Shown here piece after piece: positions 98 to 63,667 of a DNA stretch of 64,000 nucleotides (position 1 is the first letter of the stretch; every line of letters starts with the position of its first letter). The DNA lies in assembly GCF_010183535.1 (NCBI RefSeq), contig NC_071331.1, positions 12,462,001 to 12,526,000 of the forward strand. The letters are read 5' to 3'. The DNA comes from Caenorhabditis remanei. Its lineage: Eukaryota; Nematoda; Chromadorea; Rhabditida; Rhabditidae. The notes below the pieces were generated by a model. That model made no database searches and was not told the origin of the DNA. It saw only the letters and a program-made list of their open reading frames with translations. The position numbers were made by a program, and so were the translations under genes.

Positions 98-164
98 CCG
101 TTTCATGTTCTCTGGATATATATTGTCATATTCTCATGTTCGTTAATAAGAAGTTTCCTCTCTT
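98..164 (+). ncRNA. weak candidate 21U-RNA unit (one-mismatch core)
   Basis: The core at 98-105 reads CCGTTTCA, one mismatch from CTGTTTCA. A YRNT (CGTT) puts a 5' U at 144, 39 nt past the core. It lies in intergenic DNA. The spacing is right, but the mismatched core makes it only a possible locus. Confidence 0.3.
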
Positions 165-221
165 TTCTTTTTTGCTAGACACAGGGATCTCAGATCCCCT
201 TTGATTTAATTAAAATGTTCT

Positions 222-229
222 TGAAACAG
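222..229 (-). promoter_or_regulatory. Ruby-motif core without a placed start
   Basis: There is an exact CTGTTTCA on the minus strand. No YRNT falls 36-43 nt downstream (around 181-187), so the motif stands without a clear 21U start. Confidence 0.5.
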
Positions 230-311
230 ACTTCGTAAAAAATGAGACTTAGTATCAACTCTAGTATTTTATTCAATGTTTGTATACATCATCGGAGATT
301 ACCGCTCTTGC

Positions 312-358
312 AATAAGAACATTTCAGACTCTATCGAAAACATATAAAATTGGAACAG
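312..358 (-). promoter_or_regulatory. variant Ruby core CTGTTCCA
   Basis: The minus strand reads TACTGTTCCA with the core at 351-358. A YRNT gives a U at 312, 39 nt from the core. One base differs from the consensus. Confidence 0.35.
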
Positions 359-606
359 TAATTTTGCATGTTTTGCCTCTCGAGATAGTCTACCTTTCTC
401 ATTTTTATCTAGGTTAGATGAAAAAGATTCGACGTTAAGAAATTTCAAAGAATACATTTTTATTTTCACTTAGTCAACTCTCTTTGATAATTGGGGTGAC
501 TGAATAATCCAGTACTTTGCTCACTTTCCTCCATATTCTTTCCCCATTCACTTTTCTTCAATTCAACTTCTTTCCGTTTTCCAGAATTCCTCCACCAACC
601 AAAAGG

Positions 607-858
607 ATGCCTTCCCTGTCGAAATCAGTGATAGGGAGCAGTGCAGAAGAAAGAGAACTACAGATATGCCGTCTTGGATGGTCTCTTCTTCTTTTGTGGT
701 TGATCATGATCATTTACATGACAAAAGTATCGATAGTCTCTTATCAATTGTTATGTTAATTTCTTTTATAGGAGATTTGGTTTGGTGAGACATCGATTGG
801 ATTGGAAGAGGAAAGATTGGTTCGAAGAAGGAAACGCTCTATTTACAGTGACGATTAA
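607..858 (+). CDS. small single-pass membrane protein, 68 aa
   Basis: Two exons, 607-726 and 772-858, are joined across a 45-nt intron with a GTATCG donor and a TTTTATAG acceptor, keeping frame to a TAA. I chose the ATG at 607 because a strong acceptor (CGTTTTCCAG, ending 584) lies 22 nt upstream, as for SL trans-splicing. The product starts with a polar stretch (MPSLSKSVIGSS), then one hydrophobic helix at about residues 24-38 (WSLLLLWLIMIIYMT). It ends in an acidic and then strongly basic tail (EEERLVRRRKRSIYSDD). The RRRKR resembles a furin or retention signal, but that is inference. I do not recognise the family. Both splice sites and the open frame support it; the small size keeps confidence moderate. 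Confidence 0.55.
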
Positions 859-2007
859 AGCAGGAGTCCGGTGAGTTTTCCTATTCAATTTGGAAGTATT
901 GGCATCTCATTGACTGCATAATTTTAAACATAAACAGATAGTTTCTATGAGGTAGTCCTCCCCAGAAAAATCGAATGATAATTATGAGAATTTGTTTGCC
1001 ACAAATGCTGCTTGTTGAGTAATTCGTCAAACCAATTGTTCTAAATTCATTAATACAGTTGATTTTTATTTTCTTACATTCACAAATAATCTTTCGCCAA
1101 AAAAGTAATCAGAGCCATTTTAAAAAGTAGTCAGATCAGTCATTTGAATAACTAATTGACTATTCTTTCTCGCTTTCCCTGATTCAAATTGTTTTTGAAA
1201 AATGAACTTGTGTTGCTCTTGGAATGTTTCTTTAGAAACAATCAATGAATTCAAAATATTGCGAAACAGAATAGTTTTTCAATATTTCTGTCTGTTGCTC
1301 TCAAAAACGAACATCAGTTGATATAGAATGGTCGAACCAATCAAGCAGAGAGAGGTGATATAGTCATAGTTTTTCTGAAACGGGATTAAATTTTTCAACT
1401 CTTGTTAACCGAATTTTCGAAACTGTTATTCCGTGGATCAGACGAGGAAGTTATACAAATTTAGCTGTGAATTGAACTTCTGTACGTAGATTCCAGCATC
1501 AATGCGCGACGAAACAGTTTTCACAATCTCAAACTCTTCCCAATATCCCACGTTTTTCAGTCTTGAAAACCTCAGATTTCGGAAACAATGGGGTGGTCCA
1601 AAGACAAAAGGTTGGACATAATTGGAGGTACAAACGCCCTGGCGAGAGAAGAGGGGACGAGGTGTTTGTTCTTCTGCCTCCTCATTCCCTTCTTTTCCCT
1701 ATAGCAACACCTTTTTGCCTTTAGTCTTCTTTCTAAATTTTCCATTTTCAGGCTGGTCTTCTTCTTCTCTTCTTCTTCATCTTTCCACTCTTTTTCTTAT
1801 TTTCTTCTTTCCAAAAACTCCTCTGGGTAAGTTTGTATTCGTTCGTGTTCAATCAAATATTCCAAGGTGTTGAAGGTGTTTCCAAGGTCCTCTCTTTCTC
1901 GTTAAATGGAGCAAGTTATCACGCAATCCTCCGTCTAAACCACCCAGTCTCATTCCCATTTTCCCTTCCTAACTAACACTCTTCCATCATTCGAATGCTT
2001 CATCTAG
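859..2007. other. intergenic, variant piRNA motifs only
   Basis: No supported gene. Minus-strand one-mismatch Ruby cores lie at 1262-1269, 1376-1383 and 1510-1517. Each has a YRNT start 39-40 nt downstream (U at 1223, 1336 and 1471). A pyrimidine-rich stretch at 1680-1815 produces spurious open frames. Confidence 0.5.
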
Positions 2008-2008
2008 A

Positions 2009-3823
2009 ATGATTCCGGACAACTTTTGTGATCGACTCTACGTTGGTGGATTCTCGACGAACTTGAGCAGTGACCAAATTCGGGTAAGTGTGTATGTAAT
2101 CGGATAGGAAGGGTTGGAAATGGGAGAAATATGATTCAAAAGAGAAGGGGGAGAGGTGGTGGTAGAAAAAGAAGGACATGTAAAATTATAGGTTAGTTTA
2201 TTAGTTTATTGATTCGTAACAAGTGTTGGGTAGAAGCGAAAAAATAATTGTAGGTTGAATCGAAATCTGCATTGTAACCGGAACCGGCGTACTATCTTGC
2301 CGAGTTGTAGTTGAAACAATAGTGATGTGAGCCTCAAAGGAGTTTTGATATTCTGAAAATGTTTCCGCATAACAACAATAACCTAGTAACTCCTTGGAGA
2401 GATTTCAGGGTATCTGATTAGAAAACTAAAAGTAATTTTCACAATTTATTGCTTTATTCGAACGCCTCTATTGGGATTCATGATACGAGACAATTATTGA
2501 ATGCAATACTAAAACCTCATCTTGCTACAGTAATCCCTACCTAAACGGAATGTTAAGGCGGTAATGAAATAGAATATACCAACATAATACTGTCGTTACC
2601 ATCACCTTCTAATTACAGGCCCTAATCTCCCAATCAGCTGCTCCATTTGAAGTGAACATCGAAATCGTGGAGAATGGATCTCGGAGACATCGAGGATTTG
2701 CATTCGTTCAATGTCGCAACCCTGCGGAGGCCAGTGTTCTCATGGCCAAGTTTTCAGCGGTACGTTCTTCTCTTTTTTAGAGAAAATTACAGCTGCATAG
2801 TTTATCGTTTTAATTCAAAAGCGTCATACCATTTCAGCAACCAAAGGATGCCTTCTAGGCTATAAAAGGTTTGAGAAAAATGCTCTGATTAATTATTTGA
2901 TCCATCTAGATTCTGCAATTATTGATCTGATTCAACTCGTAATGATACAAATACTTATGTTATCCCTTTCACTTCTTTTGATTCTAGTTGGTTTTGTCTA
3001 ATCTGAAACTCGTAATTTCAGCTCTTCACGAAAGTCAACTTCGCCAAACGAGAGCCAAAACCTGCGGATAATGTCATGAGCAATGTGAGAATTTCACTCC
3101 CAGATTCATTCTCGTACATCCAATTATTTTCAGATCTCCAACGTGTTCGTGCGTGGAATTAATCGTGAAATGTCAGACACTGAACTCTTTCAAGCATTCG
3201 GTGGAGTCACTGATGGCGTTGTTCAGTGCCACGTGGCTGATGGATACGGTTTCGTTCTTTTTGACACTAGAGCGAATGCTCAGAAAAAGATCACAGAGAT
3301 GGATGGAACTGTTTTAGTATGTAGACTTTTCAAATTTGTTTTTTGAAATTGGGACTTTTCAGAACGGAAAATCGATTTCAGTGAGCTGGGCGCGTCCGGA
3401 TACTCTTGGAAGAAAAAGAAAAAGACCGATGAATGAAGAGAGGTTAGTCATTTAAAAGATGGATGTAGATCTTGTTCAATTAGAAAGAAAACAGTTGTTG
3501 GAATTGATAATTTACTGTTTCAAGCTTCATTTAGAAAAATTGATTCATGGACTCATTTCGATGGTCATTTGGAAAACGATTCCTTCATAATTCCTTCAAT
3601 TAGCCTCATTTTCAGCTCAACACTCTCCACACCTGACCTCGGATACGCTTCTCTTCTGAAACGACCAGCTATCCCGTCTCAACTTTTCCAGTTGTCACCA
3701 CAACCACCAGTTCTCCAACCGTCTCTTTTTCCTCTTCTCAACCCAACATACCCCCTCTTATTTCCTCCAAACCCATTGCTAGCTCAGCCCGATTTGTCTC
3801 AGTACTTGAATTTTCTTATGTAA
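2009..3823 (+). CDS. two-RRM RNA-binding protein, 249 aa
   Basis: Six exons (2009-2083, 2619-2759, 3022-3084, 3134-3316, 3363-3442, 3616-3823) keep frame throughout. The ATG lies 1 nt after a CATCTAG acceptor, consistent with trans-splicing. RRM1 (about residues 7-85) has RNP2 LYVGGF and RNP1 HRGFAFVQC. RRM2 (about 94-170) has RNP2 VFVRGI and RNP1 GYGFVLF. A basic stretch follows (GRKRKRPMNEER, a likely nuclear signal), and then a Pro/Leu-rich tail of some 65 residues ending NFLM. Tandem RRMs bind single-stranded RNA, so a role in mRNA processing is a family-level inference; I cannot name an orthologue. The last intron carries a piRNA unit on the same strand. A short acceptor-led segment at 2837-2870 inside intron 2 has an in-frame stop and is left out. 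Confidence 0.88.
3515..3582 (+). ncRNA. candidate 21U-RNA (piRNA) gene
   Basis: An exact CTGTTTCA (3515-3522, in TTTACTGTTTCAAGC) is followed by CGAT, placing the 5' U at 3562, 40 nt beyond the core; the RNA would be 3562-3582 (TGGTCATTTG...). In C. elegans, type I 21U-RNAs are single-locus Pol II units. They have this core about 40 nt upstream of a YRNT whose T becomes the RNA's first base, and the RNAs load PRG-1. Here the unit lies within the last intron of the RRM gene, same strand. Expression is inferred from sequence only. Confidence 0.72.
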
Positions 3824-4851: not shown

Positions 4852-5148
4852 ACTCCTCCCAACTCCTTTTCTTTTCCATACTTTTGGTCCTATTCACTCA
4901 AACTCACCTTTCAAATTTTTCCACTCGTCAAATTTTCACTTCTGTGATGGTCGTGTGCCTCTTCCCTTCTACTGTGATATTTTCTCCCGCTTTTCTCGTT
5001 TTATTTGTGACTCCAACTCCAGTTATCTCGTCGGTTTTCGTTCACTCGTCTTCAATAAACCTTCATGATCTCTAATTTTTATTTTCTAGTTTCAAAATCC
5101 TCTTCTTTTCAGATCTTTTTGTTTCGATTTCGTCTTCGCGTAGTTCTC

Positions 5149-5887: not shown

Positions 5888-6986
5888 TCAACAGAACAGG
5901 ATTTTCGAATCAAACTCTTCAGATGGTTGCTCTCTGTGTTCCTTCAGTATATCCATTGAAGATTTTCTTGATTCTTTTTTCATTTTCAGAAAATCTCGAA
6001 CTGTCAAAACTTCTTCTTTTTCTTCTTCGTTCATTTCATTCTTGTGCTCCTGTTTCTTGACTTTTCCCTTCTTACTCGAGTTCTTTCCAACACTCTCTTC
6101 AACTCTCTTGACTGCATCATTTGAAAGATACGGTTTCAGAAAACTCAAGTCCACTGGAGTTTCTGATTTCTTTGTAGTTTTTGCTGAAAAGAAAATTGAT
6201 CGATTGAGTTTTCTATGGTAAGAAGGGGCACCTACGTTTTTTAGAAATAGTCTTCGAGCATTTATTATTTTCCTTCTCAATCAAATCTTGCTTCTGTTTT
6301 TTCAACAATGCTGTCATAACTTCTTCAAAAGCCAAAAAATGAGCCGTGCTTGGGTCTTCATTCGAACTCAATAGTCGAATGTATTCCTTTTGATACTTGG
6401 ATCGATCGATATCATTGAATCTCTTATACATTATCCATTGAGCTGGTTCCACTATTTTCAGTGCCTTCTTTGGATTCGTCATCATCAATTCTCTCTTATT
6501 CTCAATAATCTTTTGAACCATTTCGGTTCCTGCCGAAATCATTTCCATTGCTGTCAACTGAGATTCATATTCCTTCAATTTCCTCTCATGCTCCTCTTCT
6601 TGTTGATTGTAATCGTCATCATCTTGGACATAAACGCAATATTGGAAAAATCCATACCAATTGTAATACACCATTCCTTCTTTCTCGTGAATAAGTTGAG
6701 GGAAATGCTTCTCAACAAGCTCTTTACAAATTTCCTCGAAATTCTCAGGAATATTTGAACCTGTCTCCAAATACCACGCGAGTTCTCTCATTTTAATTTT
6801 GTTTGAATTAAACAATTCAAGAGCGATTTCCACGGGAACATGTTTGTAGTTTTCTGGTTCTAAAAAATAAATAAATTTGGATTAGGATTAGGTAAACAAG
6901 CACTTACGTTGCCAGAATTCATGAATTTTCTCTAGGATTGAAGTAGATAATTTTGTATTTGAAGTAGAAATAATAGACTTATTCAT
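5888..6986 (-). CDS. unknown duplicated gene, left copy (332 aa)
   Basis: Three exons read on the minus strand: 6986-6908, 6859-6236 and 6183-5888. The first two match the right-arm paralogue in length exactly (79 and 624 nt). The product starts MNKSIISTSNTKLSTSI. It has a helical central part (LAWYLETGSNIPENFEEICK, GMVYYNWYGFFQYCVYVQDD), then an acidic coiled-coil-like stretch (NQQEEEHERKLKEYESQLT), and ends in a Lys/Glu-rich tail (LTVRDFLKMKKESRKSSMD). No catalytic motif or signal peptide is visible and I do not recognise the family. All splice sites are kept (donor GTAGGT at exon 2) and the frame is open, so this copy may be functional. A deletion changes the last residues to EEFDSKILFC, 13 residues shorter than the other copy. 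Confidence 0.8.
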
Positions 6987-8797: not shown

Positions 8798-10869
8798 ATG
8801 TTTGAGCGACATTATGGACCATTGGAATGGGTTGACATCAAGACAGACGTCTGTCAGGTTACTGTAGAAGACTCTGGGAATATCAATTATGAGACTGAAA
8901 TTATCAAAAATGGTTCTGGCGGAGGGTATGTCTACATTTCTAACAACGTTTACCACCGTATCCTACAGATTCCAAACGCCGAAAACATTAATTCACGTAT
9001 GTTTCTTCAATTTCTTCACGCGATGAATCAGAAAAATAATCAAACAACCAAAAAACGTTCATTCTTATTATTTTGTTTTCTTTTCGGCGGCATATCAACA
9101 AGTGAAATGACTGAAATTCATAATGCCGAGGTGAGTGGAAGTACCATACGTAGATATCTTTTTCGAAAATAATCTGAAACTGAACACAACATTTCCATTT
9201 TCAGTTAACTCAAGAAGTAGTCATTGGATCAGTAGCAGCGTGGCTTGAACAGACAAATGACTCCATATTGAGCATTGAAGTCGCTTTTCAACGTGATCTC
9301 ACTCAAACTTCGAATCAGGATTTGTTCGTTTTTCATATATTTTTCTGTTTCAATACGGCTACTTGTTTTGTTACTTTTGATTCGTAGTTGGTTTTCCGCA
9401 CAATGTAGGAAATTTCAGAATTGCGACAACGAGAATTGATATACTGAAAGGGGAAGATTTCCGTCCAATGAACAGAGGTAAACATATGTGGAATGGTGAG
9501 GATCAGAAGATGATTGAAAAAATGCAAAGGAAGAGACCAGAAGTTAAACAGAAGGCAACGGTTGGATTGGTTAAAGGTGGGTTTAGAAATTTATTTGGGT
9601 TTTTGATTTGAAATCTAACAGTGAGAAAGTTATTGATGCGTTCCTGAACAACCATTGAGAAAATATTTCCAGAATCTGTTGAGAAGACGAAATCCAAATC
9701 CAAATCAATATCTAATGAACCTGAGAAAAAGAAAGGAGAAGATAAATCCAAGAAATGGTCGGATAAAGTTGAGAAGAAAGTTGCTGTGAAATGGGTGAGT
9801 GCTGAAAATTAGATATATATTTTGAACTTACTAAAACAAACACGCCTCACTCCAGGAAATTCCATCAGCCGAGTACTATCCAGTCCGATATGATGAGCGA
9901 ATCATTCGTAATCCAACTGCCAAGAAGCAATGCGCTGAATTACAAACTGCTCAAGAAGCTCCAGCAATTCGTGAGAGAGGAGATGCGAATGATCGTACGG
10001 ATCAAGATTGTCTCACTCATCCACGGGATTTGCATTCATCGGTATTTTTTAAATGTATATTTTCTTATTTAAATATTTGAACTTGTAGAAAGAATCACTG
10101 GCATCACAAGGATCAACTCAAAGAGATAGTTCACCAGAGAGAAAACAAGAAATGCCAGTAGAACCACCACCTGTGAAACCAATAGAAGAGATTGTTCCGG
10201 AGAAAATTCCAGAGAAAATTCCAGAAAAAGTTCCAGAAGAACCGAAAAAAGAAGAAGAGGTTAAGAAAGTGGAAGAAGTGAAGAAATTAGAAGAGGTGAA
10301 ACCGGAGGAACCGAAAAAAGAAGAGCCAAAGGTTGAAGAAGTCGTGAAGAAGTTAGAAGAGCCTCCGCCAAAGGTTGAAGAGATCAAGAAAGTAGAGGAA
10401 CTGAAGAAAGAAGAAGAAATTAAAAAGGAAGAACCACCGAAAAAAGAAGAAGAAGTTCTGAAGAAAGAAGAACCGAAAAAAGAGGATCCTCCTAAGCATA
10501 TAGAAGAAAAGAAAGAAGAAAAGAAGGAAGAAAAGAAGGAAGAACCGAAAAAGGATGAACCGAAAAAGGAGGATCCTCCTACAAAGATAGAAGAAAAGAA
10601 AGTAGTTGAGGAAAAGAAGGAAGTGACAAACAAAGAACCTCCGGTGGTGGTTGTTGAGGAGAAGAAACCGAAAAAGAAGATCCAGGTAAAACAAACTGTT
10701 TCAAAAGTGTTGTAATTGTTCTTCATCTAATATACTTCATCTTCAGATGAACGTGAAACGGTTTCCGGATATGGGAGATCTCACGATTCTATCGGAAAAC
10801 AATGGAATGGTCACCTTCAGTTGCTCGACGAGACATCGAAACAAGAAGGCGAAAAAGAGTGAAAAGTGA
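8798..10869 (+). CDS. Lys/Glu/Pro-repeat protein, about 490-520 aa
   Basis: Secure exons: 8798-8925, 9205-9323, 9419-9576, 9673-9794, 9856-10041, 10089-10685, 10747-10869. Between the first two, either 8969-8996 plus 9032-9130 (519 aa, needs a 35-nt intron) or 9103-9130 alone (486 aa) keeps frame; I cannot decide. The N-terminal part (MFERHYGPLEWVDIKTDVCQ..., VVIGSVAAWLEQTNDSILSI) looks folded. A basic linker rich in KSKS follows. About 190 residues of imperfect EEPKKEE, EKIPEKI and VKKVEEV repeats (10152-10680) come next, then a short C-terminal domain (NVKRFPDMGDLTILSENNGM) with a basic end. No signal peptide. The composition suggests a scaffold, cytoskeletal or sperm-type protein, but the family is unrecognised. 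One intron uses a poor donor (GTTCGT at 9324). Two introns hold piRNA cores. Confidence 0.7.
9345..9412 (+). ncRNA. candidate 21U-RNA, intron of repeat-protein gene
   Basis: Exact core at 9345-9352 (TTTTCTGTTTCAATACGG). TGGT places the U at 9392, 40 nt past the core; predicted RNA 9392-9412 (TTTTCCGCAC...). It lies wholly within the intron at 9324-9418, on the host's strand. Confidence 0.72.
10696..10703 (+). promoter_or_regulatory. Ruby-motif core, start not placed
   Basis: An exact CTGTTTCA lies in the last intron (10686-10746) of the repeat-protein gene. The nearest YRNT is too close (U at 10736, 33 nt) and the expected window runs into the last exon. It may be silent or fortuitous. Confidence 0.4.
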
Positions 10870-13055: not shown

Positions 13056-14912
13056 GTGATGCACATGCCGTGTTGGCAAATGAGGTTATGTCTGTCTGGA
13101 AAGATATTGATTTTAAGTTTTGAAGAAGTCATCAAATTTTAAATAACTTACTTTTGAAGTGACTGCATAATTCTTCGCATTCTCCAACATTCGCTCACAG
13201 AATGCACATGTCAGACGTTTCTCATCCTGAAAACATTCATGTAAACAAAGATTTTTAAGATAGGATTCACTCACAACTTCTTCTTTTTCTGGAACTTTTT
13301 CTCTCGAAGTTTCGACAATTGTGTTACGAGAAACATATTTTGCTCGGAGAGGTGGTGGAATGAGAATCTGAAATGGAGAAATGGAATCAATATTTATTCA
13401 ATAAAAATGTCATTGTGATGCAGTTCATCTTTTCTAGCATTGGTGTAAACCGCTTCAACTTTATTTTGAAAATAATTATGGAATAAAAAAAGGAATGCAC
13501 ATTTGAAACGTTCAACCGATCCACTTGATTTTTGAAACAGAAAATTTCTTAAACCGGCTATCTGCATATCTACAGAATCTACAGATTCAAAAAGTAACTC
13601 AAACTTACTTCCAAAACATTCTTGTGTCCAATTCTATCCGTATGCTCTTCTCTTCTTTCTGGAATAACTGGAGGGGGAGGTGGTGGTCTTGGAGTTGTTG
13701 TGGTTGTTGCACGAGTCGTAGTCGTCGGGGGTACTGTAGTTGTTGTAGTACGTCTTCTTGTTGTTGTCGTTGGCAGTTCGATTTCTTCGATTTCTTCTTC
13801 TGGGTACTGTGTGGATGCTTCAATTGGTGGGAGGGGGCCGCCGACCTGGATCAAAACGGAATATTTACAAAACAAATCCGATTCTGATTATTGTGATCAC
13901 TGATTCAAAGTCAGTTTCAATATCAAACTTTTATAACTTGATATCTAATGAATTCCCCTTTCTGAAACTCACCGCAAACGGATTCGTCTCATCACAGAAA
14001 TTCATTCTCACACAAACATCTTTTGACGATAAATCGTAATTAATCGAGTAGTAGATCTCTGGAAGTGACGTCTCCACAAACGCGAAGCACTGCTCCTGTA
14101 AATTTTCCTAACATCGAGATTTCAAAATTCAGAATCTAAATTATTTGGGCACCTTGAAAACGGATGGAAGCACTCGACATTTCTCATAAAGTTGGTTTCG
14201 AAGCTGATTTTCAGAGAGTCCAACGCGATGTTTAGTTACGGAGAGTAGTTGAGTACACATGAAACAGCCGAGGTTCGAGGGAGTGTTGCCGTTGGGTGAT
14301 GGGGATGGTCTGGAATTTCATTATTACCGTTTCGAGTGGTTCTCAAGGTTTCGGAATTGTGTTCTGCCACAATGATTGAGGGTTTACATTCTCTTTCTCA
14401 CTGATTTTAAACGAATTTTCCGTCAATTTGACTTAAAATATCAATGACATTTCACAACGGATATACTAGTAAGGTTAATCTTGAAAAGAAATACGAGATC
14501 GAAATGTGCTATTCCAGATGAGGTTCGTAGGTGATTCGGCGTTTTTGTCCAAGCAGAAACACTAATGAATTCGACTACCAACACCCGATTTTTTTCGTCT
14601 CATTTCCAAAGAAATTCTAACTGTGTTGGTGGAAATAATATTCTCACTGTTTCAGAAATTACATTTCGGTATTCAAACTTCTAGTCGATCATTGGGCAAT
14701 AGATGCACGCGCCTTCAATTCTTCAAAAATTTTGAACACTTTGTGATTCAAGGAGGTTACTTTTTCTTAAACTTCAATCACTACACTGGTTGAATATCGG
14801 ATTCATTAATTTACCTCTGATTGACCACCGACTCTTCATTCCAGAAATACGTGAAAGTGACTTGAAACTGTTGTCCTAAAACGGCGAAAACTAATAGTAA
14901 ACTTACCCTCAT
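12931..14912 (-). CDS. secreted protein with two saposin-B domains, 315 aa
   Basis: Seven exons on the minus strand: 14912-14815, 14309-14153, 14095-13973, 13845-13609, 13367-13275, 13226-13152 and 13095-12931. A trans-splice-like TTTCAG lies 14 nt before the ATG. Residues 1-15 (MRVSLLLVFAVLGQQ) are a signal peptide. The first saposin-B domain is at about 46-125, starting LGCFMCTQLLSV, with the six-Cys pattern ending VCVRMNFC. A Thr/Arg/Pro linker follows (about 127-205, TTTTRRRTTTTTVPPTTTT then PRPPPPPPV), then a second saposin-B domain (about 240-315, TCAFCERML ... CASL ... CYQM ... LWCAELNRC). Saposin-B domains bind lipids and disturb or remodel membranes, in lysosomes or as secreted antimicrobial or lipid-transfer proteins. 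It resembles the nematode spp family. Its last exon was partly copied into the left duplication arm. Confidence 0.9.
13474..13540 (-). ncRNA. candidate 21U-RNA, saposin-gene intron
   Basis: Exact core on the minus strand at 13533-13540. CATT gives a U at 13494, 39 nt away; predicted RNA 13494 down to 13474 (TCCTTTTTTT...). It lies inside the intron 13368-13608, same strand as the host. Confidence 0.68.
14647..14713 (+). ncRNA. candidate 21U-RNA, antisense in saposin-gene intron 1
   Basis: Exact core at 14647-14654 (CTCACTGTTTCAGAAATTAC). CATT gives a U at 14693 (39 nt); predicted RNA 14693-14713 (TGGGCAATAG...). It lies antisense to the host, wholly intronic. Confidence 0.7.
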
Positions 14913-16023: not shown

Positions 16024-16092
16024 CTGTTTCAGATCTGGTAGAAATTATTCGTGGCAACTAGGATCTGTTAGTCGAAACTTGCTTTCTTTGAT
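16024..16092 (+). ncRNA. candidate 21U-RNA, intergenic
   Basis: Exact core at 16024-16031 (CTTTCTGTTTCAGATCTGG). Two YRNT starts fit: U at 16069 (38 nt, TGTT) and U at 16072 (41 nt, TAGT). Either gives one 21-mer within the interval shown. Confidence 0.68.
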
Positions 16093-16147
16093 GAAACTGC
16101 TGAGTAACAATATAAAACATCAATTTGCCTGCTAACTAAAAACAGAC

Positions 16148-16216
16148 CAATACCAAGACAGTCTTAAACTAAGGGTTTTAAATTCATCGAGTACATATTA
16201 CTATATTCTGAAACAG
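16148..16216 (-). ncRNA. candidate 21U-RNA, intergenic
   Basis: Minus-strand exact core at 16209-16216. TAGT gives a U at 16168 (41 nt). It converges with the plus-strand unit at 16024, leaving about 55 bp between predicted RNAs. Confidence 0.68.
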
Positions 16217-16621: not shown

Positions 16622-16687
16622 ATTGGTGGATGGTTTATGAAATTAAAAATTGAAATTTTGGGAAAATAATTGGAAATTTTGAAACAG
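16622..16687 (-). ncRNA. candidate 21U-RNA, intergenic
   Basis: Minus-strand exact core at 16680-16687. TAAT gives a U at 16642 (38 nt); predicted RNA 16642 down to 16622. Confidence 0.66.
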
Positions 16688-16981: not shown

Positions 16982-17049
16982 CTGTTTCACGGCTACCTCA
17001 TGAATCCCTTCAACGGCGAAATAGTCATTCCGCAACACTCTAAGTGAAA
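16982..17049 (+). ncRNA. candidate 21U-RNA, intergenic
   Basis: Exact core at 16982-16989 (TTACTGTTTCACGGC). CATT gives a U at 17029, exactly 40 nt away; predicted RNA 17029-17049. Confidence 0.72.
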
Positions 17050-17103: not shown

Positions 17104-17169
17104 CTGTTTCAGAATAAAACAAAATATTAAACTAAATTACAACAATAATAGGTAGTTAAACCCATAAAT
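17104..17169 (+). ncRNA. candidate 21U-RNA, intergenic
   Basis: Exact core at 17104-17111 (TTTCTGTTTCAGAAT). TAAT gives a U at 17149 (38 nt). It is the second of three same-strand cores within 290 bp. Confidence 0.68.
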
Positions 17170-17264: not shown

Positions 17265-17333
17265 CTGTTTCAGAAGTACCGTATACCACTAGGTTAAGTT
17301 CTAACTATTCGCTTTGAACAATGAGGCAGTGTT
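17265..17333 (+). ncRNA. candidate 21U-RNA, intergenic
   Basis: Exact core at 17265-17272 (CTACTGTTTCAGAAGTACC). CGCT gives a U at 17313 (41 nt); an alternative U at 17309 is 37 nt away. It is the third of the same-strand trio. Confidence 0.68.
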
Positions 17334-20589: not shown

Positions 20590-20656
20590 CTGTTTCATGA
20601 AATATTGAATTATCTGCAAATTTTTACAAAAGCGTTACAAAAGCTTCATGCACGGG
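20590..20656 (+). ncRNA. candidate 21U-RNA, intergenic
   Basis: Exact core at 20590-20597 (TTTTACTGTTTCATG). CGTT gives a U at 20636 (39 nt); predicted RNA 20636-20656. Confidence 0.72.
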
Positions 20657-20690: not shown

Positions 20691-20758
20691 CTGTTTCATA
20701 TTTATGTTTAAAGTTCACTTACTCAACGTCTCATCACTTAAATTCAGCTCGTCTATCA
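20691..20758 (+). ncRNA. candidate 21U-RNA, intergenic
   Basis: Exact core at 20691-20698 (TTTCTGTTTCATA). CACT gives a U at 20738 (40 nt). It begins only 35 nt after the previous predicted RNA ends, so the two form a tight tandem. Confidence 0.72.
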
Positions 20759-28447: not shown

Positions 28448-28455
28448 CTGTTTCA
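28448..28455 (+). promoter_or_regulatory. Ruby-motif core, start not placed
   Basis: Exact CTGTTTCA within AATCACTGTTTCAAAATA. No YRNT lies 36-43 nt beyond; the nearest gives a U at 28501 (46 nt). The downstream stretch is unusually GC-rich (TAGCGCGCAC). Confidence 0.45.
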
Positions 28456-29481: not shown

Positions 29482-32400
29482 ATGACATGCGCGTCGCTCT
29501 ACACACCTCGGCTGGTGCAGCGATATTCCTCATCAATTCTTCAGATTCTAATTATATTTCTATATGTTCTTCCTATTATTTCATCAGTCAAACAAGTGAC
29601 AGTACCCGGACAAATTGTGTTAGGAGGGTTGTTCCCGATTCATGAAGCTGGAAGAAATGCGTCACATCAGTGTGGAAAGATCAAAGCAGATCAAGGAGTT
29701 CAGAGGATGGTGGCGATGTTGTTTGCACTGGAAAAAGTAAATCGAGACAGACAATTACTGCCACAAGCAAGTTTGGGAGCACAGATTTTGGATACGTGGT
29801 AAGTAGAGAGATTATTGGCTGTCAAGGAAAAGTTAGTACACATTTAGTTTGTGAAACAGTAACATTTTCTCCGTTACTCAGAATCACAAACAATAGAATT
29901 TCGAGATTTACCTTTACAAGTTTGATGTATTTTCTGTTCCTTATTCATAATTTCAATTCACTAAACTTCTTTCAGTTCCGTCGACAGTTATGCTCTAGAA
30001 CAAACTCTGGAATTCATAAAATCTGTAATGTCGAATGGAGATGGAGTGACATGTGCAGATGGATCAACTGGATCATACACAAGACAACCAGTCGTTGCAG
30101 TTGTTGGAGCAGCTGGAAGTCAAGTCAGTGTGATGGTTGCATCCATGTTGCAGTTATTCAAGGTAGACATGATTTCTTCAGATAAAAACGAAATTCTTCC
30201 ATTCAGATCCCCCAAGTGAGCTACAGTTCGACGGGAGCTGAGTTGAGTGAAAAGCCAAGATTTGCATTCTTTTCTCGAGTAGTTCCTCCTGATAATCTGC
30301 AAGCTCAAGTAATGGCAAGAGTGGTGTGTTAATCCCTTTCTTTTATGGTTTCAGCTTCTATTTTGAGAATTTTCAGATTGGAGCTTTGGAGTGGACTTAT
30401 GTTCATGCAATTGCTGATACTGGGTCATACGGAGAGAGGGGAATGGACTCGTTTCGAGCTGCAGCAGCTGAGAATGGAATATGTATTGATGGAGATGTTC
30501 AGAAGATATCCAGACGGTGGACGGAGAAGAATTTTAGGTGAGAATAGAAATTAGAACGTTTGTGTGAAACCTAATAACCATGTACTGATGTGAATCCGAT
30601 TCCATTTAGATTTGACAACACTCCGAAACAGTTTTTTTGTTGAGAATTGTCCTTTCAAAAAGAACTATCAACCAGCTTAAAAAACTCATTGATATTTCAG
30701 AGACCTTCTGATCCGAATGCACCGAACTCGAAAAGCACGTGGAGTAGTGATGTTTGTGGATGAAGATAATTTGAAACGACTTCTCAAGACACTGGATCTT
30801 TTGGTTGCTGAAGGACATACAGAATTGGATAGACATTTTTGGTTGGTTGAGTTTTAAAGTGCAACTATTTTCTCAACGCATCTGCTTAAAAACTTGAATT
30901 CTTATAGAGATATATTCCGAACAAAAATAAAATAAACTCGTCATCTCGAATCAACTTTCTGAAACAGAAATAGTTTTCAGGTTCGTCGCCTCTGATTCAT
31001 GGGGAATCAAACAGTCAGTTGTCCGTGGTCTGGAGCATCGAACATACGGAGCCATCACAATTGCTCCGATGGTTAGAGAAGAGACTGGATATCTGGAATA
31101 CTTCCGATCGTTGTCTCCTAAGGGATTCGTTTTTCTGGAAGAGTTCTTCGAGTATCTGGGATGTTCGGCCACGGAAGATATCAAAACATTTGGAGACTGT
31201 TTTGATATGGTCAATGTGACATTAAAGCAGGTTGGTGTAGAGGAACAAAAAGAACGTTAATATTTGAAATGTTTTAATTCTTGGCGTTATTGAAACTGAA
31301 AACTTTCAAAAATTCAACAAAAAGAAGATACAGTTTCAATATTCAGCCTTATCACAATCAAAAGCTATATGAATAATTCTGGTTTTAACAGTTTTTCGAT
31401 AATCTCAAAGAATTGAATGAAATATTTCACACTAGTTTTCAGGAATCATATGTTCCATTCGTTGTCGACACTGTCAAAATCATTGCAAAAGCCATCTCAA
31501 TGTACATTGAGGACGATTGTGGAAAGACTCCATTCCACAAGTGCTCATTGGCTCAATCTGGATTTCGAGGGGAACGACTTCAGAGATATTATCGGAATAT
31601 GTCACTCAACAGTAAATCATTCAAAGCACTAAACTTCAAAACTCATTTAATAAAATTTCAGAAAATGAGCCAGCTCTAATCGATGCAAATGGAGACGGTA
31701 TCGGACGATATGATGTATTTCAACTGGATATGAATGGAATATATCAGAAAGTTGGAAAATGGAGATCAACTGATGATTTCTTGTCGGTTGAAGTTGAGAA
31801 AATCAGACATGCATTCAAGACAGCACACGGAGAAAGACCAATGAGTGTGTGTTCGACGGATTGTCCGAGAGGACATTACAGAGCATATCAGGATCAAACA
31901 TGTTGTTGGGCGTGTATTCCATGTGATACTTCTACGAGTATTCATAATGAAACTAGGTGAGAAATCGTTTGAAAAAGTTTGAACTTTCCTGCAAACGAAG
32001 CACTATAAATATTTTGTATGAAAGGGAATTTTATTTCCTGAAATTAAAAATATTTACATATTCCCTAATAATCCGGAAAGTTCATCTTTTCTACATAAAT
32101 ATCATTGGTTAAAAATCACTTGTTTCAGCTGCGAAGAATGTGCCATTGGAATGGTTCCGGATAGAACACTCCACTTTTGTGTACCGATTCCTCCCGTCTC
32201 TATGCAGTTAGTTTCATATCCTTCTCCACTAAATCTTACCCTATTTTCTTCCAGATGGGATACTACTTGGTCTCTCATCCCCGCTGCCTTCTCCACTCTT
32301 GGCATTGCTTCAACTATCTTCGTGATTTCAGTTTTCCTCAAATTCTCGAATACACCAGTGGTATCTATCAACTGAGATCGTATTTTTAAAAAATGTTTAT

Positions 32401-34369
32401 CAAATTCCAGATAATGGCATCAGGGAGAGAACTGTGTTATTGTATGATGTCTGGAATCGGAATGTGTTACGTTCTCACGTTTTTCTTGGTCTCTCAGCCG
32501 ACAGTTATCACCTGTTCGTTGACTAGAGTAAGAGATAACCGAATCACTTAGAAATAACTATAACGTGTTTACAGATTCTAATGGGTCTCTCAATGTCAGC
32601 CATTTATGCAGCAATCATCACAAAAACCAACAGATTAGCTAGAGTTTTTAAGCCAGATTCGGCACAAAGACCGAGGTTCATCACTCCAAAAGCACAGGTA
32701 AGATATTTGAAAATCATTTCAAAATGATGTCAACTCATTTGAAACCGTTTGGTGTTTCACGAATTCCTGATTAAACAAATATAGTCCCTCTCTGCAGTCT
32801 GAAGTTCCTCTCGATGCCAATTACTCGCTTTCAGGTCGGTATCTGTATGGGTATAGTCTCTGTTCAACTCATTGGAACATTCGTTTGGTTATTCTTCGAT
32901 CCACCCGGAACAATGATTGTTTTCCCGTCGAGAACTGAAGCTGTATTGACTTGTAAAGCAACAACATCTCATCTTTTGATCTCCCTCCTCTACAATATTC
33001 TTCTGATTGTTGCCTGTACAGTTTATGCATTCAAAACGAGGAAGATACCAGAGAATTTCAATGAGACGAGGCATATCGGGTTCACTATGTATTCCACGTG
33101 TATTCTATGGCTGGCATTTGGACCCATCTATTTTGCGACACAGAGTGATTTTAGGGTGAGTTATTGCTTTGCTGCGATAGAAGTGGTAATTAAAACGCCT
33201 CTTTTTCAAATCATGTGAAACAGAATAAAAATTAATGTTTTTCAGATTCAAATCACTTCACTCTGTATGTGTATTTCCCTATCTGGAACAGTGGCGCTCA
33301 TCTGTTTCTTCGCTCCGAAAGTAAGTTTTATAAAAGTCTTTGGGTCAATGAGGTTCAATTGAGATGAGCTCGAACTTCTCTACAAATTTAAATATAAACA
33401 ATTTTCCAGTTTTAAGTTTTCCATAACATTCCAACAAAACTATTATTTTCGTTGTGAGAACAGTTCTAACAGTTCTAATTTAATTCTCTTTCCAGGTCTA
33501 CATCGTTCTATTCCAACCATACAAAAACGTTCGTACCCGTCAATCAGCCGTCGGACGTCTTGTCAATCAACAAATGAGGTTTATGAGGTAGGTTTGCTGT
33601 GATTCTTCCCCTCAACTCATCCCTTTTTGATATGAAAAAAGGCATGACTCTCTGAGACTTGAATCCTTATCTCTCTTTCCAAAATACCCGCATGGTGTTC
33701 CTTTTTCTAGCCAATTGACCTACAACCCCGATGGATGCAACTCATATCAACCGATGTCTTCCAATCAATCCTATAAACCCAGTAGTGAGTTTTCTGAAAC
33801 GACGAAACTGATTGAAAAGTTTGATTCACTAATTGAATGAAATTCTGAAAACTGATATGAATGAGTCTGACCCTGGAAATATTTTCAGCAGAGGAGAGTT
33901 CTCACACGAGCAACGCTCCGGGACTACCGCAAACTCGAGCGATCCCTCCGCATGTAATTGAGCAGTTGGCTGCGAGTTTACCAATTAGTGACAAGAATGA
34001 TTTAGGTGAGTTTTATTCTTCACAATAGTTTCAGATTTATAGTAGATATTTTTGGGTGAAAAAATGAAAAAATCTTAATGTTTTACAGTAAAAAAGCTAT
34101 CACTTCAAGACAAATTGCTCAACAACAACAATAATAACGAGAGCAGTGAAGAGATTCGTCGCCGTCGTCCGAGCAGTGTTCACACAGTTGGCGCCATTGC
34201 AAATGGAGCATCAGTTGCTCATATTCCACCAAGAAGTTACACAGATGAACCAAAAAGTTCAATGATTCGACAAGACACGACTAAAAGCAGAGCAAGTCTT
34301 GCTGAATCTCATCAAGTCGATTTGATTTTAGAGGAAATCGCTGCAGATACACACTCGACTTTCCTTTGA
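29482..34369 (+). CDS. mgl-3: metabotropic glutamate receptor (class C GPCR), about 1006 aa
   Basis: Eighteen exons: 29482-29798, 29976-30162, 30207-30323, 30377-30537, 30701-30841, 30981-31230, 31443-31611, 31662-31956, 32129-32206, 32255-32360, 32411-32527, 32575-32697, 32835-33155, 33246-33320, 33496-33587, 33711-33784, 33889-34005, 34089-34369. A hydrophobic signal sequence lies within residues 1-35. A Venus-flytrap glutamate-binding domain follows ([46 protein letters not shown]). It retains the Thr, Asp and Tyr positions used for glutamate. The Cys-rich NCD3G domain (about 505-570, TCCWACIPC) precedes seven helices (about 575-835). The tail is long, with an Asn run, Arg-rich and Ser-rich stretches, and ends STFL, a class I PDZ-ligand form. 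The receptor couples glutamate to G proteins in neurons. I choose mgl-3 rather than mgl-1 or mgl-2 because C. elegans mgl-3 is the chromosome IV member. Exon 16 could instead begin at 33642. Confidence 0.9.
29791..29859 (-). ncRNA. candidate 21U-RNA antisense in mGluR intron 1
   Basis: Exact minus-strand core at 29852-29859. Two starts fit: U at 29811 (41 nt, TAAT) or 29814 (38 nt, CAAT). The RNA's 3' end would overlap the last 5-8 nt of mGluR exon 1 on the opposite strand. Confidence 0.62.
30584..30631 (-). promoter_or_regulatory. variant Ruby core CTGTTTCG antisense in mGluR intron
   Basis: One-mismatch core at 30624-30631 in the intron 30538-30700. CAGT gives a U at 30584, 40 nt away; an RNA would run 30584 down to 30564. 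Confidence 0.42.
30900..30967 (-). ncRNA. candidate 21U-RNA antisense in mGluR intron 5
   Basis: Exact core at 30960-30967. TGTT gives a U at 30920, 40 nt away; predicted RNA 30920 down to 30900 (TCGGAATATA...). It lies fully inside the intron 30842-30980. Confidence 0.72.
33216..33223 (-). promoter_or_regulatory. Ruby-motif core antisense in mGluR intron
   Basis: Exact core in the intron 33156-33245. The only nearby YRNT puts a U at 33182 (34 nt), and the intron is short enough that the RNA would overlap the preceding exon. Activity is doubtful. Confidence 0.4.
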
Positions 34370-41124: not shown

Positions 41125-54629
<13,505 letters not shown>

Positions 54630-55683: not shown

Positions 55684-55750
55684 CAAAATTGATTTATATC
55701 GTTATTGAGGCTTGAAATTATTTTCTAGGTATCTACAATTTCTGAAACAG
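55684..55750 (-). ncRNA. candidate 21U-RNA
   Basis: Minus-strand exact core at 55743-55750 (TTATCTGTTTCAGAAATT). CAAT gives a U at 55704 (39 nt); predicted RNA 55704 down to 55684. Confidence 0.7.
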
Positions 55751-58700: not shown

Positions 58701-60267
58701 AATCAATGGTGGTGATAACGAATTCCAGGAGAGAAGTTCATTTGAAAGACTGAAAAGATCATCAGAATTTATTTCTTTTTCCTATCCATAATTTCATTTT
58801 TACAGAGATTGTTTCACTGCTGATTAGCCGAAATCGAGCAAATATTTTCAAGAAAACAAAAAACACTCTCAACTTCCAAAAAAAACTCCTTTGAAAATTG
58901 AATTAAAAGAGTGGGTCTTCTATTCATTTTTCTATCTAATTCTAGAATCTCACAATGAAAACTTCACTTTTTCGCTTTTCGTAGTTATTTGTTCAGTTGC
59001 TCAAAATGGAAAACTTCGCGACTTTGTTCCAATTTTTGTGGAAATTATGGATTTCTACGATGAAGTTGTTCAGAAGTGAGAAAATGTTGAAAATGCGTAG
59101 CTGAAACCGCTAAAATTACAGTTTCAAATAGTCCATTTGACAAAATGAGTTCGCAGAAAACTGATAACTTAGGAGATTTTGATTCCCATGTTCCAAATGT
59201 TTCTTGACAAAACCGAAGCCATCAGGATATTATTTCAGCCCGAACAGGAGCATTTTAGTACAAAATAAGGTATCACTCCAAACTTGAGAACGATTTGAAA
59301 CCGTTCTCGTCGTAATTCAGAAACCTAAAACCAAGAAAAAAGACCCATCTCTTCTTTTCTTCTTTCTCTTTTTTTTGTCGAGCGAACTGTCGGCAATTAG
59401 TTACGCTCGTAAAATGTTGTGCGGTAATGAGATATTGAAAACGTCTTTACCGGACTGTGGGGTCTCATAGAGGTACATGAAGTGAGATAGAATTCGAAGA
59501 GAAGAGATTCGGGAGAAAATAGAAAAGTGCCGCAAAGGGAATCGAAACAGGATGAAATCGAAATCCAAAAAAAACAATAGATTGGTATCCCCTTTTTCCT
59601 CAATCCTTCTCTTCCCATATATTCAGTGTATTTTATGGGTTTTCTATTTCTCTGTTTGTTCATTCCAACTGGAAAAGAGATTTCAATCATGAAAAAAGGA
59701 AACAGAAGACGAAAATTCATAGAATAATGCGACAGATGTTTTAAGAGAGAAGACAGCCTGGCAACCGTATCATCCGAAAGAGAATTGTTGCTTTCTTTTC
59801 ATCTGAAGGTCGTGTAAATGGAGGTTTTCGGTGTTTATTCAAGATGTATTACGTATATGGTTACGACCGGAAGGACGACAAGAAGAAGAAGAAGAAGACG
59901 GAAGACGGAAGAAGGTTGGGAAAGTAGTTGAATTTCGAGGAAGTTTGAAATGGTTGAAAGGTTTCAAAAGGTTGCCGTTTCAGGAGTTGGGAATGGTTGG
60001 AGAGCTTCTAGAGTTGGTGTGTCTTCGAATTCTTCCCAGCTATGAGAATTTGGATCAGTCAGAATTTAGTCAATAAAAACATGAAGTGCGGCAAGATTTT
60101 TTTGCATGTACCGAAACTGTATATTTATTAGATTTCAAAAATATAATTTCACTTATTTGAAAAATTATGGAAACTTTATAAACTAGCATGACTCATGGAA
60201 TATTGTAAATACAGTAACTGACATGCAGGAGTAAGGATTTAGAGAAGAACCCCAGATTACTCTACAT

Positions 60268-60335
60268 CTGTTTCAAAGGGTCAATGAGAATTTAGAATTT
60301 CGTCTATCTAATATTAATTGACCAGCCTCCTTGAA
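60268..60335 (+). ncRNA. candidate 21U-RNA
   Basis: Exact core at 60268-60275 (ACATCTGTTTCAAAGGG). TATT gives a U at 60315, 40 nt away. Its 3' end overlaps a minus-strand core at 60332. Confidence 0.68.
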
Positions 60336-60339
60336 ACAG
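60332..60339 (-). promoter_or_regulatory. Ruby-motif core, start not placed
   Basis: Exact minus-strand core. No YRNT falls near 60292. It faces the unit at 60268, and the two cores' transcribed regions overlap completely. Confidence 0.42.
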
Positions 60340-60908
60340 TTCAAATCTTTATCTATCTGCACTTTCCCAGTTCACCCAAATTTTTTTTTGAAATCGAACC
60401 CATAAAACTATGCATGGAAATGAAATAAAACCCGAATATAAATGACGCGGCTGGCTCTTTTTGTCCTCTAAAAAGACATGATGACTCGATTCGTCTATAA
60501 ACAATAAAAGTGACGACGAGGAGGAAGGTCAACCTATTTCATTTTAAAAATTTACTGTTCGTTAGATAAAAAACAGTTGAAGAAGAAGGGAGGGAGAAGC
60601 AGTCGAGGGATACATATATTGAAAAGAAACTATTTAATCGAATCATGGTGATATTTAATGTGTCATACCATATTAGACAGTCTGTAAAATATGGTAGATG
60701 GTGTAATTCGAATAAGGGAGAAAACGGAGAAGAAGCAACAACATCTGCTGGTAGTCGAATATGGACTATGTCTTTCTCTCTCTCTTTATTTATGTCGTAT
60801 TGTCTCGAAAATAATGATGACAGTAACAGAGAGACCGTAATTATGAGCATCATTATTTGTCGGTGACGAAGGGGGAAGGGGGGAGGAGAAATACGGGTGG
60901 AATGTGAA

Positions 60909-60916
60909 CTGTTTCA
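60909..60916 (+). promoter_or_regulatory. Ruby-motif core, start not placed
   Basis: Exact core within GTGAACTGTTTCAAATTATT. No YRNT at 36-43 nt. Confidence 0.42.
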
Positions 60917-61109
60917 AATTATTCATGTATACGGTTTTGCTTTTTCGATTGGCTCATGACAGGGTTTCTGTTTTTTTAACATTTCATTTTTCTGGGACCA
61001 TCTAATGAAGGTCATTTCTATGCATCAGTTGGAACTTTTACAAGAAATTTCTGAAAGTGGAAAATTCTGAAGATATAGATGTTTTCCTGGAAACCATTTC
61101 ACTTCTTTT

Positions 61110-61175
61110 CTGTTTCAAAACAGTTTTATGTGATCCACGTTTCTATAGAAGTGATTATAGTTGTATAATCTATTT
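61110..61175 (+). ncRNA. candidate 21U-RNA
   Basis: Exact core at 61110-61117 (CTTTTCTGTTTCAAAACAG). TGAT gives a U at 61155 (38 nt). Confidence 0.64.
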
Positions 61176-63283
61176 GCTGACAAAATGGGTGCGTTTTTTG
61201 CTCCCTGAAACTATATTTTACACCTCCTCTTTTCTCTCCTCCCGTCTGATCATTGTTTCCACTAATAATTTTTACACTTTTCGTCTTCTTCCACCTATTG
61301 ACGTCTTTTCCTATTTTTTGGTTTTTCATGCTCTTCCCACACCAATTGCCACACTCTCCTCCATCATCATCATGATTATTTTCGTCGGTTGCCAACAAAA
61401 ACCGCCGATTCATCATAAAAATCACACCCGAAGACTGGCGAATGACTACTGAACCAACTGCTCGTTTTGAAATTTGGAAGAGCGGGGAAAATCGAGAGAT
61501 TCCAGAGAATAACAATTTTGAGCTAGTATTTTTGGAAGAAATGGAGGGGACGGATGGGTGGAAAAGAAGTTCAGAAGCACCAGAAGAGAATAACATGACA
61601 ATAATAAACAAATGGAATGTAGAAATGTAATTTTAGGGATAAAAAAGTATACAAGCGTTGAAAATTATTGGGAACATCAGAGCAAGGGTGACGAAACTTA
61701 CTTAAAAGGAACTTCTATGATTCAAAAGACTTTTCCATGAACAAGGAACAAATGTCTCCTGAGATCAAGAGTAATGTTTTTCTAGATAAATAGTCATATT
61801 AAAAACAACCAAACACTGACAAGTACAAACTCATCAACACGGGATTACTAGGTCAACGCATTACCCAACCGATGGTAATTTGTACTTCAGCTCTTACTGA
61901 AACCGCAAATTTCAAAAAAGTTAATGTCTCAGACTGTACAAAATCGAATAACTCTTTTCTGAAACTGAGGTTCATATCTCAAGTCTTCATTGTCATGGAT
62001 TATGACCGAATTTCCTAGATCTACTGCGCCAACTAGATCTGTATTAGATTTTGAGTGTACAAACTTACTCTGTAACAAGGCATTACATTAACTACATATA
62101 AAACACAAAGTGATTCTCAAACTGAGCAACTGACACAATGTTGATCCTACATTAACCCAACCATATCACTTTATTCATTTTACAACCCCAACCACTTCTC
62201 CCATCAAGATGGATCTATGACCCATAAAACAAAGTTTGTGTTAGTACAACATGTTTCTCTACCTGTCTGATGATATGTAAAGTTTAATAAAAGAACAACA
62301 TTGGGACGAGCTTCTGATTGACATTTGACATTGGAGGTAAAGGTAGGGGCTCCATCAAAAAAGAATACCGCCTCACGTCGTCATCATCATCATTGTAGTC
62401 GATTGACTCAGGAAATGTTACAACAATATCATTTGGCGGCAAAAATCATTGAGACGAGGGGGAAGTTGTCCAGTCACCCGTGCTCCTATCTACTCTACTG
62501 GTGTGAATGGTTTTTGCGGTGAAGAAGGAGGAGGAAAAGGTGAAGACACAAAAACAACAGAGAGAGCAACTGGTGAAGAAGGGACTTCTTCTTCTTCTGG
62601 CGGGAACTTCGGGAGGGATTAAGTGGCGGCACGTGTGTCTTAAGGAGATGGGACACCTTGCGGGAACGGAAAAAAGAGAAAGGGGGATTTGAAGGATTGA
62701 TGATGAATTGAATGGAGTTTGTAAGATTGAAAGAAAGAAGAACGGAAAGGGATGTCCTGATCATGAAAATGGGGGACGTACAGGACGTCGGGAGCTGTTT
62801 AACGGAATCTATCTGATTTCAAAGTTGGATGAAGAAAGTGAGTGGACAGGTGGACAGGTGCAACACTACGCAGCCAACTAAATACGTAACTATCGTAGAA
62901 AAACTAAACAGAAACGATCATTCGGGGCAACGGAGTTCATGTTTCCAGGTTGTTGCCCTACTGAGACCCTGTTGAATAACACAATTTTTTCAAACGATCA
63001 GTTGTAAATGTTAACTAGAAAGCAAAAGCAACCGGAAGAAGTACCCTGATATAACATTTAGATCTTCCCAAGTGAAATCAAAGCGAAAAAAGATTTCGTA
63101 CCAGAAGTCACATATTTTTCGCATGAAAGTTAACAGTAATCTCGAAACACGAATGATGTTTTGAAATTCAGACAAACCGCAGGACAATTGATAATGTTTC
63201 AAATCAAAACTTGATTCGAAGTGGCTGCAAGATTCCATTAGGAATATTCATAGATATTGAAACATACATTTTATCAGCGTGTT

Positions 63284-63351
63284 CTGTTTCAGTCGGTTTA
63301 CCACAGCAGTAAATTCAGTGAGGAGCTCAATTTGATCACATTTGATCTGGT
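63284..63351 (+). ncRNA. candidate 21U-RNA
   Basis: Exact core at 63284-63291 (GTTCTGTTTCAGTCGGTTTA). CAAT gives a U at 63331, 40 nt away; predicted RNA 63331-63351 (TTTGATCACA...). Confidence 0.72.
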
Positions 63352-63600
63352 CTCAACTCTCATATCAGTTAAGTTTTTCCATAAATAATTGAACAGATCA
63401 GATTTTCTAAAGATTTTTAGTGTTAGTTTACACTTCCAATAGGAAACTGAAAACTATCTTTGAATGGTTCGAAAAGATTGAAGAGATTTGTAAAAAACTT
63501 GTTTAAGTTATAACAGAACATTTCATTCTAGTCTATTCTCTGACTTTTCATCAGGAAAATGATTTTAGTTTGAATACTTATTTTCGAACTTCAAAATTAA

Positions 63601-63667
63601 CTGTTTCAGTCGGCTTAATGAATGGGAAACTGTAATTGAAACATGTTTATCATCGAAAATTAAAAAA
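63601..63667 (+). ncRNA. candidate 21U-RNA
   Basis: Exact core at 63601-63608 (TAACTGTTTCAGTCGGCTTA). TGTT gives a U at 63647 (39 nt). The 16 bases from the core onward nearly match the unit 317 bp upstream, but the predicted RNAs differ. Confidence 0.7.

Follow-up and report, generated by a model that had tools for sequence, protein, structure and literature searches.

Type I 21U-RNA genes, the source of PIWI-interacting RNAs (piRNAs), are a gene class already known in Caenorhabditis, and published accounts place the type I clusters of C. elegans at 4.5-7 and 13.5-17.2 Mb of chromosome IV. The piRNA clusters of C. briggsae are placed at 0.02-7.1 and 13-15 Mb of chromosome IV and at 9.8-12 Mb of chromosome I. 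The promoter core of the C. elegans genes, the Ruby motif, is given as NNGTTTCA (PMC7884074), the separation between core and 21U-RNA is ~35-42 nt (PMC3597512), and 21U starts show a YRNT initiator (PMC6436959). As for the 21U-RNAs of C. remanei, a review reports that the small RNAs of this species have been profiled (PMC6468775); no piRNA chromosome map of C. remanei was found by title and start of abstract in the open-access literature, a scope outside which most subscription papers lie. Here we describe a stretch of 64,000 nt (the window, C4:12,462,001-12,526,000 of a 130.5 Mb genome in 186 contigs), in which Ruby cores recur on both strands and where C4 is most likely chromosome IV of Caenorhabditis remanei.

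The window is very probably part of a diffuse type I 21U-RNA gene domain that takes up roughly the first 13 Mb of C4, a reading that draws on the core motif, the start spacing, the concentration on C4, the mostly non-coding location of the sites, and the presence of a PIWI-clade Argonaute in the genome. The window has in common with C. elegans the NNGTTTCA core, the spacer of ~35-42 nt, YRNT, the use of both strands, and the concentration on chromosome IV (PMC3597512, PMC7884074, PMC6436959); it differs in that we see one diffuse domain of ~13 Mb accompanied by two right-hand blocks. The finding is real and ordinary in kind.

Ruby cores and their start-site spacing

The Ruby core, scored as CTGTTTCA or as NNGTTTCA, exceeds chance in the window. 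There are 33 exact copies of the octamer CTGTTTCA, 19 on the plus and 14 on the minus strand, from 222 to 63601, an exact recount that agrees with the first-pass annotation of this DNA. That annotation had the cluster run from 98 to 63667; its end is the exact end of the last predicted 21-mer, and its start was not reproduced, the first octamer lying at 222. Chance or base composition can be rejected as the source of the octamers, given 33 copies against a mean of 4.45 (sd 2.24, maximum 11) in 100 dinucleotide shuffles of the window; the excess claimed at first inspection therefore stands, although the 2-3 copies then expected were somewhat too few. Genome-wide, CTGTTTCA occurs 19,000 times (6,781 for the reversed word), which gives 9.3 copies per 64 kb, so that the window holds ~3.5 times the average (Poisson P ~1e-9 for at least 33 copies). 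For searches with more than 100 matches, we used the lists of places for totals and single places only, and domain counts come from complete lists; we note that the listed CTGTTTCA matches on C1 past ~0.51 Mb are all on one strand even though the strand totals are balanced.

In C. elegans, the T of YRNT is the first base of the 21U-RNA. We scored each octamer for a YRNT whose T falls 38-41 bases beyond it, using 61 offset windows of equal width as controls, and found one for 27 of the 33 window octamers (control mean 9.6, maximum 16; binomial P ~5e-10). When the window octamers are pooled with 59 from 13 samples of the domain (n = 92), the YRNT peak is sharp, with 23, 24, 18, and 17 sequences at offsets 38, 39, 40, and 41, respectively, and at most 12 at each of the other offsets from 11 to 69. 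The domain samples, which are independent of the window, show the spacing at 47 of 59 octamers against 18.8 expected. No excess appears in the reversed window (11/44 vs 9.9 expected) or in nine samples from outside the clusters (eleven non-cluster samples minus two without an octamer), where the spacing is found at none of 9 exact octamers and at 32 of 134 NNGTTTCA sites, exact ones included, against 35.8 expected; likewise, a comparison set of 21 other sites, some of them from 8 loci chosen for holding an octamer, gives no peak at the start spacing. The spacing signal, which puts the U ~38-41 bases past the core, links the octamers to 21U start sites and rules out most alternative readings.

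One-base variants of the core, scored in the pooled 194 kb of window and domain samples, follow the NNGTTTCA core of C. elegans broadly, not strictly. Most changes at position 1 or 2 retain a clear spacing excess (ATGTTTCA 31 vs 13.6 expected, CAGTTTCA 29 vs 10.9, CGGTTTCA 25 vs 11.1, CCGTTTCA 18 vs 7.4), which is weaker for TTGTTTCA (14 vs 9.7), and changes of the last base retain it as well (CTGTTTCT 17 vs 7.6, CTGTTTCG 12 vs 4.5, CTGTTTCC 9 vs 4.1). Changes inside the core can abolish it, as in CTTTTTCA (10 vs 10.0 expected) and CTGATTCA (4 vs 4.7). From the spacing excess, we estimate that the exact core accounts for ~24 true loci in the window and other NNGTTTCA cores for another ~24, which gives roughly 0.75 predicted loci per kb; C. 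elegans has more than 15,000 loci, of which more than 90% lie in ~6.2 Mb (PMC6436959, PMC6468775). The first count of octamers takes in six without YRNT at the right spacing and leaves an estimated 24 loci with other NNGTTTCA cores uncounted.

Several observations weigh against a 21U-RNA gene domain at this place. Six of the 33 window octamers lack YRNT at the correct spacing, and two variants changed inside the core show an excess, albeit in small numbers (CTGTTCCA 9/11 vs 3.1 expected, CTGCTTCA 9/13 vs 4.3). Furthermore, the bare pentamer GTTTC is hardly enriched (321 in the window, 5.0/kb, against 406 in ten other samples, 4.1/kb), unlike the C. elegans clusters, where it is enriched about ten times (PMC3597512).

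We infer expression and function of the predicted 21U loci from sequence. Each unit would be a tiny autonomous gene composed of a Ruby core NNGTTTCA, at its best CTGTTTCA, and then a YRNT initiator, the T of which, 38-41 bases past the core, would be the first base of the 21U-RNA. If C. elegans is a guide, SNPC-4, PRDE-1, and TOFU factors would recruit RNA polymerase II, whose short capped transcript of ~26-28 nt would be trimmed to the 21-nt 5'-U RNA and loaded on PRG-1. Another mark of type I 21U-RNA genes is regulated chromatin that carries H3K27me3. Piwi-domain matches number 67 in the genome, counted per exon, and four Argonaute loci were compared with solved structures. One exon (C1:628061-628363, in the locus C1:627,501-628,500) scores 121 bits to Piwi-like protein 1 and 60 bits to Argonaute-2, so that by score it belongs to a PIWI-clade Argonaute and is a candidate for PRG-1. 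The three other loci were rejected as PIWI since their Argonaute-family scores exceed their PIWI-family scores.

Distribution along C4, the probable chromosome IV, and promoter types

The 15-base word TTTTACTGTTTCAGA has 85 matches in the genome, 82 on C4, 2 on C2, and 1 on C5, and its reversed control has none. Those on C4 fall into three blocks, at 2.3-12.9 Mb (19), 18.9-20.3 Mb (21), and 23.1-23.9 Mb (42). The word GGTACTGTTTCADA has 12 matches, of which 7 lie between 4.6 and 11.1 Mb of C4, a single one in the 18.9-20.3 Mb block, another at C4:17.5 Mb, and the remaining 3 on C2/C5 (reversed control, 5). The sites are thus clustered on chromosome IV, with C4 taken as IV, and the identification of the octamer as the Ruby core of type I 21U-RNA genes is borne out by this concentration together with the YRNT spacing. 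Could the octamer instead be a transcription-factor site, for example a forkhead site, or a splice-related word in ordinary introns? Several copies do lie between exons of the class C G protein-coupled receptor (GPCR) and unc-5 genes, and binding of the motif by forkhead factors has been reported in C. elegans (PMC3597512), yet such a word predicts neither a YRNT 38-41 bases downstream (27/33) nor a concentration on one chromosome (82/85), and we give this explanation hardly any credence.

Thirteen 10-kb samples of the left domain (C4 0.25-11.5 Mb; one sample that overlaps the window was left out) hold 61 octamers in 130 kb. Only 9 are found in 110 kb of comparison DNA, namely eleven samples taken elsewhere on C4 and on C1, C2, C3, and C5 (none from C6). 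At 5.2 octamers per 10 kb, the window has the average density of a diffuse domain that takes up about 13 Mb at the start of C4, and it lies toward the right end of that domain. The description of the cluster as dense was overstated, the window being ~4 and ~10 times sparser than the 10-kb samples picked from the two right-hand blocks.

Since the window, at 12.46-12.53 Mb, is close to where the left domain ends, the sites could alternatively be 21U promoters that have decayed or fallen silent, remnants of an old cluster with no transcription left in this part of the chromosome. Samples at 11.5, 13.5, 15, and 17 Mb of C4 hold 1 octamer each, and in C. elegans, 21U units that had been put into active chromatin yielded no detectable mature 21U-RNA (PMC6436959). 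Against this, the spacing shows no sign of decay (27/33 in the window, 47/59 in the domain samples, 55/70 in the right blocks), and we regard silent relics as improbable, though less so than the other alternatives weighed here.

Just beyond the left domain, TACTGTTTCATA is present in at least 15 copies at C4:13,624,029-13,690,340, where spacings of 585-588 bases recur; this pattern suggests that a block containing the motif was amplified in tandem. That the octamers of the window themselves belong to a dispersed repeat or satellite containing CTGTTTCA and spread over C4 is very unlikely. Local amplifications with the motif do seem present elsewhere on C4, for example TACTGTTTCATA at 13.62-13.69 Mb, and one predicted 21U of the window (51575-51595) lies in a 2-copy 15-base repeat; however, the flanks of the 33 window copies differ, as judged by eye, only weak base preferences are conserved beyond the core, and octamers are absent from all 14 tandem-repeat rows of the window.

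The right-hand blocks were sampled at two 10-kb stretches picked for known TTTTACTGTTTCAGA matches, so that their densities are not averages. C4:23,655,001-23,665,000 has 51 exact octamers per 10 kb, ten times the window density, 40 of them with the YRNT spacing, and strongly A/T-rich flanks; its octamers stand in same-strand blocks, with a facing pair at 5028/5056 and back-to-back pairs at 6288/6309 and 6804/6826. C4:19,705,001-19,715,000 has 19 octamers per 10 kb, of which 15 show the spacing; 19 of its 21 cores are C-first, and its G+C content is higher, at 0.438. Together, the two stretches show the spacing at 55 of 70 exact octamers. A third stretch in the 18.9-20.3 Mb block, C4:19,000,001-19,010,000, sampled without prior knowledge of matches, contains no octamer and no GTTTC; it consists of 54-base satellite units in 237-, 291-, and 345-base repeats. 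This octamer-free satellite indicates that the right-hand blocks are uneven.

The two right-hand stretches and the left part of C4 differ in the first base of the core. Among NTGTTTCA cores, C comes first in 70 of 75 in the right stretches (55/57 of those positive for spacing) and in 92 of 189 in the left domain and window (74/128 of those positive for spacing), a contrast with a Fisher P of ~9e-9 for the spacing-positive sites. After correction for chance, the first base is C, A, G, and T at ~66, 24, 7, and 6 sites on the left, and on the right C at ~48 and T at 2, with no A. An A directly precedes the exact core in 65 of 70 right-hand copies, compared with 37 of 92 left-hand ones. Of the 41 genome matches of the A-first word TTTCATGTTTCAGA, the left domain holds 28 and the right blocks none, with 13 elsewhere; at least two pairs among the 28 share a 966-base spacing, which marks some of them as duplicates. 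TTTAATGTTTCAGA favors neither domain (left 6, right blocks 3, elsewhere 16; n = 25); the A-first signal is therefore sensitive to the flanking base, and its support comes from the raw samples and TTTCATGTTTCAGA.

In C. elegans, a C-first core marks spermatogenesis (male) piRNAs, and a change of C to A disturbs the male pattern and gives oogenesis expression (PMC3597512, PMC7884074). By this analogy, it is possible, if on balance doubtful, that chromosome IV is split by promoter type: the right blocks, with TTA and C-first cores, would be male (spermatogenesis) piRNA factories, and the left domain, with C-first and other cores, A-first above all, would serve both sexes or oogenesis too. In comparison with C. 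briggsae, the broad left-arm domain of chromosome IV is similar, and the right cluster of that species has strongly A/T-rich Ruby flanks (PMC9683057), as does the stretch at C4:23.66 Mb. We see no counterpart of its chromosome I cluster, with none of the 85 TTTTACTGTTTCAGA matches on C1; this word is mainly of right-block flavor, and a left-type cluster may yet lie on C1.

Predicted loci and genes of the window

The predicted loci of the window are collected in Table 1. At 60268-60339, two facing octamers lie 56 bases apart, and the predicted 21U of the plus-strand one enters the minus-strand octamer.

Table 1. Exact octamers of the window and the 21U-RNAs predicted from them (21U range on the plus strand, 21U start on the minus strand or where two starts are possible).
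Coordinates	Strand	Feature	Ruby core	Predicted 21U	Context
222..229	-	CTGTTTCA octamer, no YRNT at +38..41			weak candidate
3515..3582	+	core and 21U	3515-3522	3562-3582	only octamer with coding score >5
9345..9412	+	core and 21U		9392-9412
10696..10703	+	octamer, no YRNT at +38..41
13474..13540	-	core and 21U	13533-13540	13494
14202..14267	-	core and 21U	14260-14267	14222
14647..14713	+	core and 21U		14693-14713
16024..16092	+	core and 21U		16069 or 16072
16148..16216	-	core and 21U	16209-16216	16168
16622..16687	-	core and 21U	16680-16687	16642
16982..17049	+	core and 21U		17029-17049
17104..17169	+	core and 21U		17149-17169
17265..17333	+	core and 21U		17313-17333
20590..20656	+	core and 21U		20636-20656
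20691..20758	+	core and 21U		20738-20758
28448..28455	+	octamer, no YRNT at +38..41
29791..29859	-	core and 21U	29852-29859	29814 or 29811	antisense to class C GPCR gene (mgl-3-like)
30900..30967	-	core and 21U	30960-30967	30920	antisense to class C GPCR gene
33216..33223	-	octamer, no YRNT at +38..41
42435..42501	+	core and 21U		42481-42501	antisense, junction of unc-5 exon frames 41360-42439 / 42484-43242
45570..45637	-	core and 21U	45630-45637	45590	between found unc-5 exons
46072..46140	+	core and 21U		46117 or 46120
46158..46224	-	core and 21U	46217-46224	46178
50029..50095	+	core and 21U		50075-50095	antisense; core adjoins, 21U inside, unc-5 N-terminal exon frame (50045-50464, minus)
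51575..51643	-	core and 21U	51636-51643	51595	21U in 2-copy 15-base repeat 51575-51604
52179..52244	-	core and 21U	52237-52244	52199
55684..55750	-	core and 21U	55743-55750	55704
60268..60335	+	core and 21U		60315-60335	faces octamer at 60332
60332..60339	-	octamer, no YRNT at +38..41			faces 60268
60909..60916	+	octamer, no YRNT at +38..41
61110..61175	+	core and 21U		61155-61175
63284..63351	+	core and 21U		63331-63351
63601..63667	+	core and 21U		63647-63667

Of 84 open frames with a length of 90 aa or more, 30 were run against Pfam with curated cut-offs, and in these 30 only domains of two genes rise above the cut-off. A class C GPCR gene on the plus strand (~29.3-33.2 kb) has NCD3G and 7tm_3 above and ANF_receptor below it, and unc-5 on the minus strand (~41.4-50.5 kb) has TSP_1, ZU5, and UPA above and Unc5_NetrinR_N and Death just below it; the mgl-3 (here a class C GPCR, mgl-3-like) and unc-5 genes named in the first-pass annotation are supported by these domains. 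Matches below the cut-off to EMP70, PalH, BILF1, TSP1_spondin, and, in one further frame, 7tm_3 were not relied on.

A coding score above 5 is found at 1 of the 33 octamers and at 159 of 1000 random positions, and no open 90-base frame in any of the six frames at 16 of 33 and 245 of 1000, respectively, so a coding origin of the octamers is rejected. The score, trained on the same seven exons that were used for its calibration, detects 25 of 42 known-exon positions in the window and misses some exons, so that a few other octamers could be exonic. The proposal that all octamers but one are intronic or intergenic is accordingly plausible by a score of this kind, which does not amount to gene models. 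The A+T content is 0.69 upstream and 0.70 downstream of the octamers, compared with 0.636 for the window, although non-coding DNA may be A/T-richer anyway. Within the window, no Rfam family reaches its gathering score and no tRNA the threshold, and small nuclear RNA genes, which share the SNAPc promoter motif, and tRNA loci are rejected on these grounds.

Two apparent arrangements on one chromosome

These findings suggest that what is called a cluster takes two forms on one chromosome, either a sparse domain of ~13 Mb interspersed with ordinary genes or a shorter block. The spacing test needs no RNA data, and with it the chromosome-scale geography of piRNA genes is extended, from sequence alone, to a most likely outcrossing Caenorhabditis. 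The part worth following is the contrast between the left domain and the right blocks, which are up to ten times denser in places and differ in promoter type, and which lead to a testable prediction about male and female piRNAs. If that prediction is true, sex-specific piRNA programs would be physically separated along a chromosome of a male-female species.

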